A stretch of 15,363 nucleotides of DNA, taken from Pseudomonadota bacterium (GTDB taxonomy: Bacteria > Pseudomonadota > Gammaproteobacteria > Pseudomonadales > Pseudohongiellaceae). The notes under the pieces were generated by a model. That model searched no databases. It was not told the DNA's origin and saw only the letters and a list, made by a program, of their open reading frames with translations. The stretch covers positions 1 to 15,363 of the forward strand of contig JADFOC010000009.1 in assembly GCA_022563075.1 (NCBI GenBank), read 5' to 3'. The position numbers were made by a program, and so were the translations under genes. Position 1 is the stretch's first letter, and each line of letters opens with the position of its first letter. Below, piece by piece: positions 4,374 to 14,107 of the stretch.

Positions 4374-7148
4374 TTAGAAGTTGACGCGGATCTTGGCGTA
4401 GTAGAACGCTCCTTCGATGCCCCAGGGTGTGGATCCATCGAAGGTGTTACCTGATCCGATAGTGCCGTCCAGGTTGTCGATATCGATTGCACCTTCTTCG
4501 TCGAAGACGTTGTTGGCGCCGACGATGACCGTGTAGTTCTCATTAAACGTATACGCGACTTCAACATCGAAGATGTTCTCGCCATCGTAGCAGTTATCAC
4601 GGAACAGCCCTCGCCCACAGTCGATGGTGAATCCTGTACCTTTGGCACCACGGGCAGTTGGGTCGCCAGACCAGCTACTGTTCACCCAGTCATCATAGAC
4701 GCTCAGACGTGCCAGGAAGCGGAAGTTATTGTAGAAGTGGTTGTAGGTAAATACGCCGCGGTTATGCGGGTTGAACTCTTCCAGGTCAACTACTCGGTTA
4801 CGACTCACTTCTGAACCCGCATTATCCACCTCGGTTTCAGTCCAGTTCCAAGCTGCCACCAGGCTACCCGTACCCATATCGCCCCAGTCCAGATTCCAGG
4901 TTCCAACGAGGTCGACACCGGTTGTAGTGGTTTCGAAATCGTTGGTATAAAAGGAAACAGAGTTGAGGTCGGCTGCGCCAGGCACGCCAAGTTCCTGTAA
5001 GCACAGGGCCAGGTTACCGGCAGGATTCGCTCTGGCACCCGGGCAATTTACGCCAGCAGGAACCGGCAGGCCGCCAATGACGATGGAACCAGTCTGTGAG
5101 ATACGGTCATCAATATTGATGTTGAAGTAATCCACAGTCACATTGATATCCGGAGTCACATCCCAGACGAATCCCAGCGAGAAGTTGGTTGATTCCTCTG
5201 GTTCCAGAGCCTCACCACCCAGGAACACTGCAATCGGGTTGGAAGGTGGAATCTGACCGCGTTGCTGCAATTCACCATCGATAGTGATGGTGGATACTTT
5301 GGTCACATTCTCCTGGCCCGGTGTTGGCGCTCGGAAACCCGTGTTGTAGGAAGCACGCAGCATCAATTGATCGGTGATGCGATAGCGGCCGGCAATCTTA
5401 TAGTTGGTAGTAGTACCAAAACTTTCGAAGTCTTCGAACCTTATTGCGATAGCGCCGGTGAATGCTTCGGTGAGATCTGCTTCCGCTTCGCCATAAACTG
5501 CGTAGTTTGCACGACCCCATATACCGGCTTGTTGTGGGCTGAAACCGGCGAAACCATGCGCACCAATACTTAGATTTGGCAGCGGCGTAACCCCATCGCT
5601 GTAGAAGTTATTGCCGATCGTGTTCTGAAACGCATAATCGCCGGCCTTCCAGGACGCTTCTTCGCCGATAATGGTTTCGAAGCGCTCATCACGCCACTCG
5701 CCACCGAAGGCGAGGCTCAGGTCGGAGGCAAAGCCGTCCACCGGCATCACGTACACAAAGTCCGCGTTGACATTGGTTTCAGACTGGACATAGGAGCCGA
5801 TGTCAAAATCTCGCTGCAGTGCACCATTGATAATACCGTTGGGTCCATTCGAGGGGTTCCAGGTATTGTTGAGGAAGAACGACACCTTGTTGCGACCGTA
5901 GCTGGCACTGAAGTCATAAGTGAGATTCGAGCTGAAGTCGCCACGAATACCCACCACCAGGCTGGCATCTTTCAATTGACCCCCGAATTGAGGCGTATAA
6001 CCACCAGGCAGAAGCTGATTCAACACCCAGCAGTTGCCAGGCAAGGCATTCAGCGCCGCTTCGTCGGCCGCTACTACGGCTGCATCGAGCAGCACACCAT
6101 TGCCGCCGGAACCTGGACTAGTCAGAGCTGGGCAATTAGAGGTAATGCCAGTTTGTCCTGGTGCGATATTGGTATCTACAATGGCTCGTATGCTGCCATT
6201 GGTGAATACACCGCTGCGAGAATTCGGATTACGGAAAAAGAAGCCGCCTTCGGTTTCACGTTGACCGTAGTTACCGAAAGCATAGACTTCCTGAGTGTCA
6301 GATAATTCGATTCCGGAGTTAATGAATACGTTCCAGTTATCAATATACTCAGGACCACCCCAGATTTGAGCATAGGGTTGTCGAACACTTGCTCTCTGAG
6401 CGGCATTGCCGCTGGCAATCAACGTAGTAGCATCGGTGCGCTGGGTAGAACGGCTGGTAGCGTCCTGTTCCATCCAGGAGCCGGTAATATTGATGAAACC
6501 GTCATCGCCCAGTGGCAGGCCGATGTTACCCATAAACTGGGTCAGGCCGCCGTCGCCTTCAGCGTATTCGCCGCTGCGGGCTTCAAAAGAAAAACCGTCG
6601 GCCGCGTCTTTCAGCACGAAGTTAATGACGCCAGCGATGGCATCTGAACCGTACTGGGCTGCAGCACCGTCGCGCAGGATTTCAGTGCGTTTGAAGGCCA
6701 TTGCCGGGATAGCTGAAATGTCAGCGCCCTGAGAGCCAGCCGCCAGCGAACCACCCAGTTCGGCGATTACACCCGAACGATGGCGGCGCTTGCCGTTTAC
6801 CAGGATAAGAATATTATCCGGTGGCAGGCCACGCAGATTGGCTGGACGTACTAAGGTGGCGGCATCAGAAATCGAATGCCTGACCACATTGTAGGAAGGC
6901 ACTGAAGTTCTCAACATATCGTCGAGATCCGAGTAGCCCATGTTCATGAACTCGTCGCCACTGATGACATCCACCGGCACCGAGCTGTCGGATGCACTGC
7001 GCTGTGGACGTCGTGAGCCGATGGTTATTATTTCTTCGATGAGCTCGTCCGCTTGCTGTGCCAGCACCATCGGGGCAAATCCCGGGGCCAGCATGCCAAG
7101 CGCAATCGCAGGTATTAAAACCCTTGCTTTCTTAGTTCGTGTAAACAT
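4374..7148 (-). CDS. TonB-dependent outer-membrane receptor
   Basis: This 924-residue receptor is a 22-strand outer-membrane barrel of the type that imports ligands using TonB/ExbBD energy. It has a signal peptide (1-30, cleavage VLA/QQ), a TonB-box-like stretch (IEEIITIG, about 37-44), a plug domain (about 50-180) with the conserved LRGLPPDNILILVNGKRRH and DGAAAQYGSDAIAGVINF signatures, then the beta-barrel, ending in KIRVNF with the C-terminal phenylalanine recognised by the BAM complex. The frame is open further upstream, to an ATG at 7250, but the start at 7148 is chosen because it has a GGGGGA ribosome binding site six bases away and opens directly onto the signal peptide. The ligand is unknown; no siderophore, sugar or vitamin genes are next to it. 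A strong terminator follows, so it is probably transcribed alone. Confidence 0.93.
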   Translation of the reverse strand: MFTRTKKARVLIPAIALGMLAPGFAPMVLAQQADELIEEIITIGSRRPQRSASDSSVPVDVISGDEFMNMGYSDLDDMLRTSVPSYNVVRHSISDAATLVRPANLRGLPPDNILILVNGKRRHRSGVIAELGGSLAAGSQGADISAIPAMAFKRTEILRDGAAAQYGSDAIAGVINFVLKDAADGFSFEARSGEYAEGDGGLTQFMGNIGLPLGDDGFINITGSWMEQDATSRSTQRTDATTLIASGNAAQRASVRQPYAQIWGGPEYIDNWNVFINSGIELSDTQEVYAFGNYGQRETEGGFFFRNPNSRSGVFTNGSIRAIVDTNIAPGQTGITSNCPALTSPGSGGNGVLLDAAVVAADEAALNALPGNCWVLNQLLPGGYTPQFGGQLKDASLVVGIRGDFSSNLTYDFSASYGRNKVSFFLNNTWNPSNGPNGIINGALQRDFDIGSYVQSETNVNADFVYVMPVDGFASDLSLAFGGEWRDERFETIIGEEASWKAGDYAFQNTIGNNFYSDGVTPLPNLSIGAHGFAGFSPQQAGIWGRANYAVYGEAEADLTEAFTGAIAIRFEDFESFGTTTNYKIAGRYRITDQLMLRASYNTGFRAPTPGQENVTKVSTITIDGELQQRGQIPPSNPIAVFLGGEALEPEESTNFSLGFVWDVTPDINVTVDYFNINIDDRISQTGSIVIGGLPVPAGVNCPGARANPAGNLALCLQELGVPGAADLNSVSFYTNDFETTTTGVDLVGTWNLDWGDMGTGSLVAAWNWTETEVDNAGSEVSRNRVVDLEEFNPHNRGVFTYNHFYNNFRFLARLSVYDDWVNSSWSGDPTARGAKGTGFTIDCGRGLFRDNCYDGENIFDVEVAYTFNENYTVIVGANNVFDEEGAIDIDNLDGTIGSGNTFDGSTPWGIEGAFYYAKIRVNF

Positions 7149-7675
7149 TAAATTCCCCCTTGAATAAAGAATATTTGGCTTAAAGTTGTAAGCAGTTGGG
7201 TTGACGCGGCGCCGAGATAGGATTGCTGACTCCATTGTTAGGAATATCAAGCGCGCGAGCGTTTATCAAGCATAAAAGTCCGTGCCATAAAAGTCTATAT
7301 CCCATGCACAAAAATGGGGCAAATGTGCCTTTAAAGTGCAAAATATGCCGTAATTTCGAAAGAAGGGGTGCTTGAAACGTCGAAAATCCCGAATTTAAGT
7401 TCAAAGATGTTCCTAAAAAGTAATAACTGCTCCCTTTCCGATTTGGGGAAAGTACAGCATGCCCCGGGTATTGATCCAAAACGGATGAAAATTAGTGGCA
7501 TAACACTCCTTGTTGGAAAAGATCTGGTTGCGCTTGACCGGTACCTGGTTCCCTGGCCAGCTTTCGAGAACCCCGATAAAAATCAATGAATTAAGCCGGG
7601 CGCATACGCGCGATAAGGAGTAAGCTGAGTACTAGCGGCTTAATGTAGCCCAATAATGCGGCGCCAGGTTATCTC
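7149..7675. other. intergenic region between divergent TonB receptor and redoxin genes
   Basis: These 527 bp separate divergently transcribed genes. The part next to the receptor holds its ribosome binding site and the candidate promoter with direct repeats. A small inverted repeat, CTTTCC/GGAAAG (7434-7439 and 7447-7452, 7-base loop), has no U tract. AAGGAG at 7615-7620 looks like a ribosome binding site but no start codon follows at a usable distance. No believable coding frame was found on either strand. Confidence 0.6.
7241..7295 (-). promoter_or_regulatory. candidate promoter with tandem direct repeat upstream of the TonB receptor gene
   Basis: On the minus strand, TTGATA (7264-7269) and TATTCC (7241-7246) are separated by exactly 17 bp, giving a likely start near 7234 and a leader of about 86 bases. 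Directly upstream of this -35 lie two identical 10-mers, GACTTTTATG (7286-7295 and 7271-7280), 5 bp apart, at about -37 to -61. Tandem repeats abutting the -35 are the arrangement expected for an activator site. The regulator is unknown, and the -10 matches only three bases of the consensus. Confidence 0.35.
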
Positions 7676-8170
7676 ATGGCAGACAAACTCAATCCGGGAG
7701 AATTGTTTCCCGATCTTGCGCTGAACATAGCGGGCAATGGTACTCTGTCTTTGCCTGGCGATATTGATTCGCCGCTGACGCTGCTGCTGTTTTATCGTGG
7801 TCACTGGTGACCCTATTGTCGCCGCTTATTAACGGGCTATGCAGAACGCCGTGATGCGTTTCGCGAACAAGGGGTTTCAATCATTGCCGGGACCGTCGAC
7901 TCGGAAGAAAAGACGGCAGAGGTTGCCGCCGATCTCGGTTTTCCTGTTGCCTATGGCATGACTCGGGAAGACGGCGACCGTATCGGCGCCTGGTGGGAAG
8001 AACGTCGAGATCATATTCAGCCTAGTGAATTCGTGTTAAGCAAGAGCGGCAAGGTAATGATGTCGACTTACAGCAATTCACCGATCGGACGCATGGATCC
8101 CGCGGAGACCTTGTCGCTCATTAAGTATTTGAACGACCGGCGCGCCAAAGCCAAACCCGCGGATGAATAA
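7676..8170 (+). CDS. peroxiredoxin-like (AhpC/TSA, Prx-like2) protein with probable selenocysteine: UxxC
   Basis: One frame of 165 codons runs from the ATG at 7676 to a TAA at 8168, interrupted once by TGA at 7808-7810 (codon 45). The flanks read LLLFYRGHW-[TGA]-PYCRRLL. In Prx-like proteins of this type the expected residues are FYRGxWCPYC, so the TGA stands exactly where the first cysteine of CxxC belongs. The frame stays intact for 119 more codons and matches the rest of the thioredoxin fold: GVSIIAGTVDS (66-76), LGFPVAYGM (86-94), a PSEFVLSKSGKV strand (about 114-125) and a C-terminal helix. The natural reading is a selenoprotein of about 164 residues with Sec45 and Cys48 as redox pair, reducing peroxides or disulfides in the cytoplasm (no signal peptide). 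The ATG at 7676 is the first after an in-frame TAG. The alternative is a nonsense mutation or base-call error. Confidence 0.72.
7808..7852 (+). promoter_or_regulatory. candidate bacterial SECIS region downstream of the in-frame TGA
   Basis: Two mutually exclusive hairpins can be drawn just after the TGA. One is GCCG (7821-7824) with CGG-G-C (7833-7837, one bulged G), spanning +11 to +27 from the TGA, about where the fdhF upper stem-loop lies; its loop CTTATTAA has no G. The other is ACGG (7832-7835) with CCGT (7849-7852), a 13-base loop that begins with G, 25 bases after the TGA. The second fits the loose bacterial SECIS rules (loop about 16-37 bases away, G at the loop start) but its stem is only 4 bp. 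Neither is decisive without folding and comparison. Confidence 0.35.
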
Positions 8171-8318
8171 ATAACGGAAGCTGTTAGAATTAATCACGAT
8201 TCCTCGCTCGCTGTATTCTTTTTATTAGCTACCACATAGACATTCGCTGCATTCAACGCGGACGTTGCACAGCGCTACAGCGCCGGCTATCTTAGTCGGG
8301 CTTTTCGGTCTGCTTCTG

Positions 8319-9479
8319 TTACCTTCTATAAATAATCTTATCGCCATAATGGTTTTCAGACAGAAATCCGCGATACCCATCCATCCCTCTGAGATAGACA
8401 TTAAGAAATGACAATGCATAAGCATTGATAATGGTGTGAGATTCATCCGCATCGAGGTAGGTGAGTGGTTCACCGTTGGTAATGCGTTCACCCGTGCCGA
8501 AGCCGTTACCATAGGTAGGGTTATATTGATTCACACTGGTGAAAGTCATGTGGCCCCCGTCTCTTAGCTCTACCAGGTAGCTCGGTCGCAGTGAATTTTC
8601 GTAGTAGAGTCGGTTCGTGGCATTACCCCGTTCACCGATGGTCGAATCTTCGCTGCCTAGCATCATCATAATCGGAGTGTAGGCATTGAGGCGCTCTCCA
8701 ACCGGGCCGCCCGGCGCCAGCAAGACACCCGCTTTGATCCGCGAATCCTGGCTCAATACATTGATGCTGGTGGTTCCCCCGAAGGACATGCCCGAGGCGG
8801 CCACCAGTTCGGTGTCGACTCTGCCGGCAAATCGGCTATCCGCACCGGCATTCATCTTGATCATGGTATCCAGCAGAAAGCTGATGTCGTTGGGTCGATC
8901 GGTTGCAGAGTTTCGTGCCCGTTCCCCGCCACGTAGGACGACTTTACCATCGAGAAAAGTAAATCGGGCGTTACCGGTATGATCTGCTGACATCACAATA
9001 TATCCATGGGACGCCATGTGTTCCACAAAGTAGATATAACCAACTCGAGTTCCGCCACTGCCATGAGAAAACAAGATGAGTGGCCATTCGCCGTCACGTA
9101 CCCCGGCATCACGTACCGAGACATTTTGAAATGTACGATCCAGTTCGGCAATGGTTAGCCCTTCCTTGTAACCATTTAGCCCGGCTTCTGCTGCGTCGAT
9201 GAAGCCCTCGCCCACTCCGCGTAAAATAAATTCGGAGTATTTGTTTTTTGGCATGCCGCGTGCGGCATCGATGGCCGGGTACCATATTTCGGTCAGTAAT
9301 TGTCGTGGACCGCCAGTTTCAGGATCGATTCGGCTATGATCATCCAGTTGCATGCTGGTAACACCAACCGGATAGGGGCCTAGCTGTTCCGGGTCCAGGA
9401 TGCTTTGGCCCATCAGTAGAGGTGAAGCAAACAGAAGGAAAACCGTGAACAGGGAATTGCCGGTGTTAGTAATTTTCAT
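8319..9479 (-). CDS. secreted alpha/beta hydrolase (PAF-acetylhydrolase/dienelactone hydrolase-like)
   Basis: The 386-residue protein has a signal peptide (about 1-24) and an alpha/beta-hydrolase core. The oxyanion-hole region reads LILFSHGSGG (134-143), the nucleophile elbow is GMSFGG (230-235, Ser232), an acidic residue is available in LGSEDST (274-280), and His310 in DGGHMTF completes a likely triad. The spacing, and the ADHTGN element after the oxyanion strand (165-170), fit the family of platelet-activating-factor acetylhydrolase-like and predicted dienelactone hydrolases, which cleave short-chain or oxidised esters in the periplasm or outside the cell. The ribosome binding site is GAGGA, about ten bases before the ATG. 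It converges with the redoxin gene (149 bp apart). The substrate is unknown and no lesion is seen. Confidence 0.87.
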   Translation of the reverse strand: MKITNTGNSLFTVFLLFASPLLMGQSILDPEQLGPYPVGVTSMQLDDHSRIDPETGGPRQLLTEIWYPAIDAARGMPKNKYSEFILRGVGEGFIDAAEAGLNGYKEGLTIAELDRTFQNVSVRDAGVRDGEWPLILFSHGSGGTRVGYIYFVEHMASHGYIVMSADHTGNARFTFLDGKVVLRGGERARNSATDRPNDISFLLDTMIKMNAGADSRFAGRVDTELVAASGMSFGGTTSINVLSQDSRIKAGVLLAPGGPVGERLNAYTPIMMMLGSEDSTIGERGNATNRLYYENSLRPSYLVELRDGGHMTFTSVNQYNPTYGNGFGTGERITNGEPLTYLDADESHTIINAYALSFLNVYLRGMDGYRGFLSENHYGDKIIYRR

Positions 9480-9736: not shown

Positions 9737-10726
9737 CTACGCCCTGAGTTTCTGCGGAAATTCACCGATCTCGAAGGGATTCTCGAAGATCTGATGCATG
9801 CTAGCTCCGGCGAGAAGGGCGCGCTTGCAAGTCGCGTTGACCATGGACGGTGCGCCGCTCAGGTAAACGCGCCAGTTTTTGAGATGCTTATGTTGGCTGA
9901 ACGCGAGGTCGTCGGGACGACCGCGGGCAAGGCCCGACACTGCGTTGTCGCCCGAAACTGTGAATACGAAAGAAAAGTTTGAGTATTGTCGCGCCAGACT
10001 TTCCAGTTCATTACCCAGGTAAATCTGGGCACCTTCCCTTTCGCCATGATACAGCCAAATTCTACCGAAGTGTCCGCGGTGCAGCGCGTCTCGTGCAATG
10101 CCCCACAGTGGCGCCAGCCCCACGCCGGTGCCGATCAGGAGAATATCTTGGCTGGTATCCCCTGGCAGGTAAAAAAAACTGCCGCAGGGCGGTTGAAAAT
10201 CGATGACGTCGCCGGCTTGCAACTGGTTATGAATCCAGTTGCTCATGATGCCGTTCTGCATTTTTCTGACATGTAGTTCTAAATATCCATCCAGCGCTGG
10301 CACGCTCGCCAATGAGTAACTGCGTACTACACCATCAGGGCGCCGCAGATTGATGAACTGGCCGGGGTGATAGTGGAGATCCTTCGGCGGGGTCAAGCGC
10401 ACACGGCACAGGCTGGCGTTCACTTTTTCAACCTGATGCACCAGGGCATGGCGGAACATATCGGCATCTGTCGTTCGTGCAATTTCGATGTCATCGCTCG
10501 GTTGCCACTGACAGGCCAGGAAGTAGTTCTGCATGCGCTGGGTCGGTTTCAATTCACTCTGGGCTTGAGTCGGCACTTCGCCGCTCATAGCCTGCATCAC
10601 GCAGCTCTGGTAGATGCCCTGGTTACCGGGGTGCGCAATATCGCAGTCAGCCCCCACCAAAACGTCGAGCACGCTCTTGCCGCGATCGACAGCATAGCGC
10701 TGACCATGAAACAAAATGCTCCCCAT
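9737..10726 (-). CDS. ferredoxin-reductase-like flavoprotein with a degenerate [2Fe-2S] domain
   Basis: The 329-residue protein has the layout of oxygenase reductases: N-terminal plant-type ferredoxin domain (1-85), FAD-binding domain with RSYS (135-138) and PGQF (121-124), and an NAD(P)-binding domain with GTGVGLAPLWGI (199-210) and SGAP (290-293). It would pass electrons from NAD(P)H through FAD. In the ferredoxin domain the usual C-x4-C-x2-C reads G34-x4-Y39-x2-C42, with C72 as the fourth ligand, so two of the four cluster cysteines are replaced by Gly and Tyr while the surrounding residues (QSCVMQAMSGEVP, YFLACQ) are kept. A normal [2Fe-2S] cluster therefore seems unlikely. An AAGGGG ribosome binding site lies eight bases before the ATG. 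No oxygenase gene is adjacent. It is probably still a flavin oxidoreductase, with acceptor unknown. Confidence 0.85.
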   Translation of the reverse strand: MGSILFHGQRYAVDRGKSVLDVLVGADCDIAHPGNQGIYQSCVMQAMSGEVPTQAQSELKPTQRMQNYFLACQWQPSDDIEIARTTDADMFRHALVHQVEKVNASLCRVRLTPPKDLHYHPGQFINLRRPDGVVRSYSLASVPALDGYLELHVRKMQNGIMSNWIHNQLQAGDVIDFQPPCGSFFYLPGDTSQDILLIGTGVGLAPLWGIARDALHRGHFGRIWLYHGEREGAQIYLGNELESLARQYSNFSFVFTVSGDNAVSGLARGRPDDLAFSQHKHLKNWRVYLSGAPSMVNATCKRALLAGASMHQIFENPFEIGEFPQKLRA

Positions 10727-12093: not shown

Positions 12094-12858
12094 ATGCCAC
12101 TAGTTCGTCTGGACAAGATATCTCTCCATTTCGGCACTCAAATCCTGTTGGATGAGGTTGACTTCACGCTGAAGAAAGGCGCCAAGATCGGTCTGCTGGG
12201 TCGCAATGGAGCCGGTAAGACCACGTTGATGAAAATCATCGCGGGAACCGTAACACCCGATGATGGCAGCAGATGGTTGCGACCCGGTGTGGAAGTAGCG
12301 TGGCTGGAGCAATCACTGCCTGAGGCGGATGATCAAACTGTTTACGACATGGTTGCCGACGGCTTGTCCAGCGTGGGTGAGTTGCTAAAACAGTACCATC
12401 ATTTGACCGCCGATTATGAGCATGCAGATATGGTGCAGCTGGAAAAAGTGCAGAGCCAATTGGAAGCCGTGCATGGTTGGAGCCTGGGCCAAAGAGTCGA
12501 TACGATAATTACTCAACTACAATTGCCAGCAGACAAACTGATGTCAGAGCTGTCCGGCGGCTGGCGTAAGCGGGTTGCCCTCGCTCGCGCATTGGTACGA
12601 CAGCCGGAATTCCTGTTGTTGGATGAGCCAACTAACCATCTGGATGAGAACAACATACAGAAGGTCGGTGATGTAATAAACAAGGCGAGAGAGATGACAG
12701 AAGACGGTGTTATCGTATTGATCGCAACTCATGAACATGAGCTAATGTCCTCGTTTACCAGGACAATAGATGTTGAAGAGTTACCATGGCGCCTTGCTGC
12801 CGGTAACACACGATCGTATATTTTTACAGAATGTGGTGAATGGAATTGCAGAAATTGA
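12094..12858 (+). pseudogene. uup: uup (ABC-F ATPase), N-terminal part, frameshifted
   Basis: Uup is a cytoplasmic ABC-F ATPase of about 630 residues with two nucleotide-binding domains, linked to ribosome function and to suppression of transposon precise excision. This half encodes the first domain: Walker A GRNGAGKT (36-43), signature LSGGW (153-157) and Walker B LLLDEPTNHLD (174-184). The match to Uup stops after residue 184. Residues 185-229 (beginning ENNIQKVGDVI) are unlike Uup and read like the D-loop to H-loop stretch of another ATPase (VIVLIATHEHEL, 207-218). The frame then runs out of register (PWRLAAGN...) to a TGA at 12856. The proper continuation of Uup, LLKSYHGALLPVTHDR, is in the +1 frame from 12770. 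Unless a frameshift occurs, the product is a truncated first domain. Confidence 0.85.
12646..12780 (+). other. foreign ATPase-coding segment inserted in uup
   Basis: Between Uup's LDEPTNHLD (ending at 12645) and its LLKSYHGAL (from about 12773) the usual 'IxTIxWLExL' stretch is missing. In its place about 135 bp encode ENNIQKVGDVINKARE...GVIVLIATHEHEL...TRTIDVEE, which aligns in kind with the same part of an ABC-type ATPase (end of Walker B to just past the H-loop). At the right junction TTGAAGAG serves both readings: GTT GAA GAG (V-E-E) in the foreign frame and TTG AAG AG(T) (L-K-S) in Uup. At the left junction CTGGAT is what both proteins would need (LD). Short shared sequence at both ends suggests microhomology-driven template switching. 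Confidence 0.6.
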
Positions 12859-14107
12859 TAGGGGGCACTTGTACCATTTTAAAGGCACATATCAACGTTT
12901 CCTGCAGTATCGTGAACAACAATTAGCCGCCGAAGAAACTGCTAACAGGCTCTTCGACAAGAAGCTTGCGGAAGAAGAGGTCTGGATTCGTCAGGGAATC
13001 AAGGCGCGTCGCACTCGCAATGAGGGTCGGGTGCGCGCATTGGAGGCGATGCGCACAAAACGTGGAGAAAGAAGAGAGTTACAACGAGGTGCGAGTTTCA
13101 AACTAAACGCATCAGATCGCTCCGGAAAGATAGTTGCTGAATTAACCAAGATAAGTCACAGCTTTGAAGATAACCTGGTAATTAGGAATTTTTCCACTAC
13201 GGTATTGCGTGGCGATCGTATCGGTATTGTTGGCGCTAATGGTGCCGGCAAGTCAACTCTGCTCAAAATATTGTTGGGCAAACTAGAACCTACTCAGGGC
13301 AAAGTAAAGCTGGGCACCAAATTAGATGTCGCTTATTTCGATCAGCTGCGAGAGCATCTCGACCTGGAGAAAAACCTCATAGACAACGTATCCGATGGTC
13401 GGGACTTTATTGAAATCAACGGACAAAAAAAGCACATCATAAGCTATCTTTCAGATTTCCTGTTTACCCCGGATCGCATTCGAACCCCGACCAAGGCCTT
13501 GTCTGGCGGAGAGCAAAACAGAGCGATACTGGCAAAAGTTTTTAGCCAACCTGCCAACATTATGGTGCTGGATGAACCCACTAACGACCTCGATATAGAA
13601 ACGCTGGAATTGCTTGAAGATATTCTAATTCAATTCAAAGGTACTGTATTGCTGGTGAGTCACGATCGACAATTTATGGATAACGTGGTTACCAGTCTCA
13701 TGGTATTCGAGGGCGAAGGCGTCATTAATGAATATATCGGTGGATACAGTGATTGGAGTCGAAAAGGGGGCAGCTTGATAAGTTTTGAAGATGCCGAATA
13801 TTCCTCTTCTGCCAAAACCACCCGGACCACAGCAGGGCGGCCACAGGATGAAGTTATTGTCGCCCCAATGCAAAAACTCAAAAAACTTTCTCATAAAGAT
13901 CAGCGTGAGTTGGATGCACAACCTGCACTCATCGAAAAACTGGAGTCACAACAGGCCGAGTTCGAACAGTTGATCTCACAGCCGGAGTTTTATGCGAATG
14001 ACAATGAAAAAGTACAACAAGCCCTGAAGCAACTTGCAAACACCCAAGCATTGCTTGAGAGGGCTTTTCAGCGCTGGGAAGAATTGGAAAAAATCAAGCT
14101 CTCGTGA
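12770..14107 (+). pseudogene. uup: uup (ABC-F ATPase), C-terminal part, out of frame with the first half
   Basis: This 445-codon frame carries the rest of Uup without further lesions: the first domain's H-loop VTHDR (12-16), the inter-domain linker with EEVWIRQGIKARRTRNEGR (69-87), the second nucleotide-binding domain with Walker A GANGAGKS (155-162), signature LSGGE (244-248), Walker B VLDEPTNDLD (266-275) and H-loop SHDR (297-300), and a C-terminal coiled-coil DNA/RNA-binding region (about 370-445, ending FQRWEELEKIKLS). The ATG at 12770 lies just after an in-frame TAG and has no proper ribosome binding site, so it is probably only the first available start, not a real one. Conservation of everything beyond the junction suggests the break is recent or technical. 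The downstream PQQ gene is 121 bp away. Confidence 0.85.

Follow-up and report, generated by a model that had tools for sequence, protein, structure and literature searches.

Prx-like selenoproteins with Sec in a UxxC motif have previously been described from marine sequence collections. In the parts of the two reports available to us, the GOS set is given as containing 225 Prx-like 1 selenoproteins assigned to pfam00578 (PMC2398784), and the Sargasso Sea set as including a Prx-like protein with UXXC (PMC1088965). With respect to the RNA signal, the accessible part of PMC13188914 describes most bacterial SECIS elements as having a spacing of 16-37 nt and a G within the first two positions of the loop, with G or U often coming next; it notes itself that a subset of genes does not conform. 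G23 and U24 are named among the critical sites of the E. coli SECIS in the part of PMC8659212 available.

The locus analyzed here lies in a stretch of 15,363 nt (the window) belonging to a MAG of 2.97 Mb in 531 contigs with a completeness of 73.8%. An earlier note on this DNA had proposed that one of its genes encodes a Prx-like UxxC selenoprotein. Compared by description with the available parts of the two marine reports, the product of this gene fits GOS Prx-like 1 by pfam00578 and UxxC (PMC2398784), and like the Sargasso Sea protein it is marine, peroxiredoxin-related and has its putative Sec in UxxC (PMC1088965). The coordinates of the features discussed below are collected in Table 1.

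Table 1. Features of the window, with the evidence on which each assignment rests
Feature	Position	Strand	Basis and remarks
Prx-like UxxC gene, putative selenoprotein	7676..8170	+	164 residues, terminal TAA; translation, domain match, relatives
UGA, probable selenocysteine codon (residue 45)	7808..7810	+	translation and aligned relatives
Cys48 codon, partner of Sec45 in U-P-Y-C	7817..7819	+	invariant in 34-row alignment
Pro116 codon	8021..8023	+	place of thioredoxin-type Pro and peroxiredoxin Arg
Hairpin 1	7821..7837	+	nt 14-30 from U of UGA; covariation over 79 genes, synonymous resampling
Hairpin 2, candidate SECIS	7844..7861	+	nt 37-54 from U of UGA; codon use, resampling, folding
Apical loop CGUGAU of hairpin 2	7850..7855	+	39 nt after UGA; shares CGUG with 24/31 SelW genes
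Possible enclosing stem, three-way junction (tentative)	7811..7872	+	arms ~7811-7819 and 7865-7872
TonB-dependent receptor	4374-7250	opposite to Prx-like gene	
Hydrolase	8319-9479	opposite to Prx-like gene	

The Prx-like gene, its relatives and its product

Translation of 7676-8173 revealed a single internal stop, a TGA in the context FYRGHW-U-PYC, followed after residue 45 by 119 sense codons and TAA; the earlier statements that one frame carries a lone TGA at codon 45 and continues undamaged for 119 codons beyond it were thus borne out. With U at position 45 the translation matched PF00578 (AhpC-TSA) over residues 8-128 (5e-15). Comparison of the window gene with its relatives gave a median dN/dS of 0.08 downstream of the TGA (100 codons, 22 of 78 pairs computable) and of 0.17 upstream of it (40 codons, 36 of 78 pairs computable), with dS mostly saturated in these pairs.

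A six-frame search located the gene in 34 of 137 genomes of the family, 32 of them with an in-frame TGA, one with Cys and no stop (G015) and one with a frameshifted copy (G089) that was excluded from the hairpin counts below. Direct reading of the TGA site covered 31 of these 32 genomes, namely the 30 fetched loci and G016, the remaining one being G091. All 30 fetched family loci carried the TGA within G-x-W-U-P-[YF]-C, and the further TAG/TAA counts of the six-frame search agreed with the terminal stops of these loci. The search of named genomes confirmed 165 relatives, and the TGA was present at the site in every one of the best 80 of the 165; two additional pattern matches in this set (L079 with TAG, L095 with TGC) fell in other frames and were disregarded. 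The titles of these best 80 were mostly those of gammaproteobacterial MAGs (including Pseudohongiella, OM182 and Pseudomonadales), together with two Alphaproteobacteria (L129, L131) and one Myxococcota (L101). An order-wide search of 390 genomes returned 17 matches, ten of them with TGA. Seven distant stop-free homologues (L209-L215, 30-37% identity) gave no line for the motif pattern and were left out. The unnamed-genome set (30) and the named-genome set (80) overlap; their 110 TGA loci were reduced to 105 with the full region free of N, 81 unique sequences and finally 79 below 97% identity. The locus L110 (CAMAVY010000002.1), titled Klebsiella pneumoniae, holds a TGA gene that branches amid marine gammaproteobacterial sequences, and this label is probably wrong.

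Homologues of both types, with Cys or with TGA at the site, were found, and the Cys forms place their Cys where the TGA stands, in agreement with its proposed position at the first Cys of a CxxC. Of 375 homologous proteins, 120 were listed, 100 of which had a length of at most 125 residues; the twelve short ones examined all start downstream of the TGA. An in-frame ATG in the window gene (Met95 at 7958) offers gene callers a possible restart, as had been foreseen with the prediction of a truncated ORF from 7958. The remaining variation at the Sec site among the 120 listed homologues comprised W in 16 and C in four, the latter full-length. Protein P0006 corresponds to the L033 gene translated with TGA as W, and since the DNA of L033 carries TGA there, this W is a product of the translation table. 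Given the 100 short forms and the 16 with W among the 120 listed, genes of this kind are widely misannotated.

The structure model of the protein had a pLDDT of 90.2, and its top-ranked whole-chain fold matches were peroxiredoxins. Peroxiredoxins are characterized by a Thr/Ser three positions before the peroxidatic Cys and by an active-site Arg. Profile alignments to 6q5v and 5xbq put Sec45 and Pro116 at the places of this Thr and Arg, by which the protein differs from peroxiredoxins such as Bcp4 (3hjp, 19% identity). In an alignment to the ResA-type thiol-disulfide oxidoreductase 3c71, UPYC stands opposite CPHC and Pro116 opposite the Pro of ResA, that is, a thioredoxin-type (ResA-like) UxxC with its partner Pro; these oxidoreductases differ from the window protein in having Cys at the first position instead of Sec, and the best whole-chain matches here were peroxiredoxins. 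As judged from the model and the alignments, the fold is that of a peroxiredoxin and the active site is thioredoxin-like. Because Sec45 and Pro116 sit at the Thr and Arg positions of peroxiredoxins, a peroxidase role is not established, and the corresponding label in the earlier note was not upheld. The score against the SelL-related redox protein model NF040769 was 20.8 bits at a curated cut-off of 120, and no NCBIfam family was above its cut-off for the protein.

Elsewhere in the window, the uup gene (ABC-F, 12094-14107) is interrupted, as had been noted before: two overlapping frames match two parts of the Uup model with 211 and 588 bits (cut-off 900), the frame changes near 12770, and the stretch before this change is unlike Uup. 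The best NCBIfam model for the flavin reductase at 9737-10726 scored 152.7 bits at a cut-off of 338, and its N-terminal ferredoxin-like part presumably has fewer Cys than the usual motif. No tRNA was found in the window, PADLOC reported 0 families, and an Rfam scan at the gathering threshold gave 0 matches.

Selenocysteine machinery and other TGA-containing genes

The MAG of the window contains selA (571.6 bits, above cut-off), tRNA-Sec (63.7 bits, above cut-off, with ARAGORN in agreement) and a selB match of 223.5 bits (cut-off 242.25), whose frame of 540 residues is truncated by the end of the contig. The search for sel genes that the earlier note had proposed thus recovered selA, tRNA-Sec and a contig-cut selB, and selD was not found in this 73.8% complete assembly. 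Across the 137 family genomes, selA was present in 93, tRNA-Sec in 86 (E 1e-8) and selD above cut-off in 118. In the genus of the window most of the best selD matches lie within frames of roughly 750-800 residues, which recall the Ndh-SelD fusions mentioned in the available part of PMC2398784. A SelD with an in-frame TGA was observed in L197 (G064:C40:1-1600), the best SelD matches of the genus being mostly in much longer frames.

Further candidate selenoprotein genes in the MAG include a SelW-like gene whose TGA was read and two UGSC-family matches (G000:C30:20923-21345 and G000:C244:1958-2389) with one TGA each, the latter two known as matches only. Within the genus, 80 of 84 genomes gave a match to the UGSC family.

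The Prx-like TGA gene co-occurred with the machinery: of the 32 genomes with the TGA form, 31 contain selA or tRNA-Sec (Fisher p = 2e-4 for 99 genomes with and 38 without selA/tRNA-Sec, relatedness ignored). The exception, G114, carries the Prx-like TGA gene and a SelW match with TGA, and neither selA nor tRNA-Sec was matched in this 85% complete MAG, in which selD also stayed below its cut-off. The sole Cys form among the 137 genomes, G015, had no selA/tRNA-Sec match and a weak selD match only, and its congener G016 carries the TGA form together with selA, tRNA-Sec and selD; the two (L163 and L164) form a close Cys/Sec pair within one genus. The conservation of the TGA, the Cys aligned with it and the Sec machinery in the genome, along with the further TGA selenoprotein genes, support the selenoprotein reading put forward in the earlier note.

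Two hairpins downstream of the UGA

Among the 79 non-redundant genes, excess synonymous identity averaged 0.30 in the first 17 codons downstream of the TGA (+1 to +17), where it peaked at +13, +14 and +16, and ranged from 0.02 to 0.09 in the remaining bands. The segment Arg13-Arg14-x-Ala16 was present in 67 of the 79 genes and encoded by CGC CGT GNN GCG in all 67, against a share of 1.0% predicted by codon use in the remainder of the gene. This sequence forms hairpin 2, CGC[CGUGNN]GCG, the loop of which occupies nt 43-48 from the U of the UGA and leaves 39 nt in between. Upon synonymous resampling, 4.90 of five hairpin 2 pairs formed in the 67 genes compared to 3.50 expected (sd 0.08), and 2.08 compared to 2.35 expected (sd 0.19) in the 12 genes lacking the motif. 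In the window, hairpin 2 alone had a z of -1.9, and 9 of 200 shuffles did as well.

A simple scan for G-loop hairpins, with no energy filter and with limits taken from the accessible part of PMC13188914, found no qualifying hairpin at 16-37 nt in the window, the looser rule included, and one at 39 nt. With regard to the SECIS that the earlier note had suggested looking for, the conserved GU-loop hairpin lies just beyond the usual 16-37 nt range. At 38-42 nt the scan detected a hairpin in all 67 hairpin-2 genes versus 2/31 SelW, 1/30 UGSC and 3/12 motif-free Prx genes. A GU-loop hairpin at 16-37 nt is also kept in 30 of the 67 (49 by the looser rule), and in some of the genes hairpin 1 may therefore have remained active.

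Hairpin 1 was retained in both groups, with 5.51 of six pairs against 3.68 expected in the 67 genes (sd 0.13) and 5.33 against 3.84 in the 12 motif-free genes (sd 0.28) under synonymous resampling. Its pair 14-30 was GC in 49, UA in 11, GU in ten and other in five of 75 distinct rows, and four of the six consensus pairs form in the window. Closer inspection of its loop separated the two groups: G21 was found in 12/12 motif-free genes (ten CUGUUAG, two CAGUUGG) versus 30/67 hairpin-2 genes (Fisher 2.5e-4, relatedness ignored), the window gene being one of the 37 without it. In genes without hairpin 2, the hairpin 1 loop thus looks like a conventional GU loop 16 nt after the UGA. G016 lacks hairpin 2 and has the loop CUGUUAG, as do L199 and L207 from outside the 79. 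In two other loci outside the 79, L203 and L204, the CUGUUAG loop persists alongside hairpin 2, and for this reason they look like intermediates.

With the two hairpins taken jointly, 90.0% of cells paired, compared to 85.2% in shuffled and at most 40.2% in slid controls. Changes on both sides were seen in 34 cells, with 8.5 in shuffled alignments, none of 500 of which reached 34; a slide of +2 columns gave 36, yet only 33.1% of its cells pair. Seven pairs showed a both-side change, with 4.7 in shuffled alignments (20/500), and the slide of -1 also gave seven. RNAalifold by itself returned hairpin 1 only and no hairpin 2, and the 68-nt fold of the window was no better than its shuffles (z -0.45). 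In 43 of the 67 genes, the minimum-energy fold of the 68 nt contained the two hairpins together with an enclosing stem, and over the 67 the mean pair probabilities of the two hairpins were 0.73 and 0.73 versus 0.04 and 0.06 in synonymous controls. The enclosing stem itself was slightly above expectation (5.91 of eight pairs, 5.53 expected, sd 0.07). Among the 12 genes without hairpin 2, the minimum-energy fold included hairpin 1 in only five.

A quick tree with two Cys forms as its root placed the genes without hairpin 2 mostly outside the hairpin-2 genes. Hairpin 2 required four changes on this tree, many forks of which are open, and a single origin may be possible; the hairpin 2 codons were included in building it, so the trait's own columns helped shape it.

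Similar loops were observed in the other selenoprotein genes read. SelW genes carried C[CGUGU]G at nt 25 in 24/31, for a spacing of 21 nt after the UGA in most SelW genes read in the genus, and C[AGUCU]G in 7/31. In this latter subgroup (L141-L144, L154, L156 and L158) AGUCU replaces CGUGU, with position and GU constant. UGSC genes had C[AGUUU]G at nt 22 in 30/30, a spacing of 18 nt, with G and U at the positions of G23 and U24 in the E. coli SECIS as given in the available part of PMC8659212. The CGUG hairpin accordingly occupies one position in 67/79 Prx genes and another in 24/31 SelW genes; as a measure of chance, with a stem of at least 4 it arises ~0.0023 times per 75 nt elsewhere in the Prx loci. 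The fold of the TGA-bearing SelD of G064 showed no GU loop and is an exception to this pattern. A covariance model built from the 31 SelW hairpins missed the Prx hairpins both in the window with filters off (26 matches elsewhere to E 10) and in 41 loci, 39 Prx plus L163 and L164 (eight matches elsewhere). In terms of sequence, SelW and Prx hairpins have the loop and closing pair in common, not the stem.

Rival readings, proposed mechanism and comparison with known systems

The earlier note had cautioned that the TGA could reflect decay. A nonsense mutation or a sequencing error would fit the interrupted uup in the same window and the broken copy in the relative G089, but the identical TGA recurs in many independent assemblies, the rest of the frame is intact and dN/dS after the TGA is low in the 22 computable pairs; on these grounds this explanation was rejected as extremely improbable. 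We give equally little credence to a decoding of TGA as tryptophan in these bacteria. The W found at the site in some listed homologous proteins speaks for it, yet in P0006 this W is a translation-table effect, several genes of the genus terminate at TGA, and Cys occupies the site in four other full-length listed homologues and in G015, for which reasons it was likewise rejected.

A different question is which hairpin would serve as the SECIS. Hairpin 1 lies at a conventional distance and could have this function in all members, with hairpin 2 being a pausing, stability or other element. The stem of hairpin 1 is kept in both gene groups, G21 persists in the loop of 30 of the hairpin-2 genes, and its 16 nt spacing agrees with the model in the accessible part of PMC13188914. 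We nevertheless regard this arrangement as unlikely, since G21 is missing in the other 37 hairpin-2 genes, the window included, and present in all genes without hairpin 2, and since the loop of most SelW genes in the genus is the one that sits in hairpin 2. The reading we consider likely is that the gene encodes a Prx-like UxxC selenoprotein with a thioredoxin-type site on a peroxiredoxin fold, in which hairpin 2 would be the SECIS and hairpin 1 a folded spacer.

As far as sequence comparison reaches, the TGA is conserved, the Sec machinery is present and both hairpins are under RNA-level selection; that SelB binds hairpin 2, that hairpin 1 acts as a spacer and how the chemistry proceeds are what we infer beyond that. 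The UGA would be decoded as selenocysteine by SelB with tRNA-Sec, the SelB-binding SECIS of the clade most likely being hairpin 2 with its loop 39 nt past the UGA. Hairpin 1 would fold out 17 nt, by which the 39 nt become an effective spacing of ~22 nt. Since the active site is of the thioredoxin type (Sec45-Pro-Tyr-Cys48, Pro116), the Sec45 selenolate would be expected to attack a disulfide or hydroperoxide, with Cys48 resolving. We lean, with less assurance than for the selenoprotein reading as such, towards a re-siting of the SECIS in which the 16-nt hairpin lost its SelB loop after the CGUG hairpin arose 23 nt downstream, the old hairpin staying as a spacer in a two-hairpin/three-way-junction SECIS and the RNA element fixing the protein segment Arg-Arg-x-Ala. 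A moving SECIS, together with L203 and L204, which combine hairpin 2 with the old GU loop, would make the UGA-SelB distance testable, along the chain versus in the folded RNA.

Among the open-access papers searched, no earlier report was found on selenoproteins of Pseudohongiella or selenocysteine in OM182 and, by titles and the beginnings of abstracts, no bacterial SECIS with a three-way junction, which does not imply that these are unpublished. Bacterial SECIS models use a range of 16-37 nt, and within it the simple scan gave no qualifying hairpin in the window gene. Compared to the bacterial SECIS model in the accessible part of PMC13188914, hairpin 2 has the same small GU apical loop closed by C-G, but its loop is placed at 39 nt with another conserved hairpin in between. 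The effective 22 nt would be close to the 16 nt of the hairpin 1 loop, the 18 nt of UGSC and the 21 nt of SelW. The Prx-like UxxC kind of protein is already known, and the new part is the SECIS arrangement.
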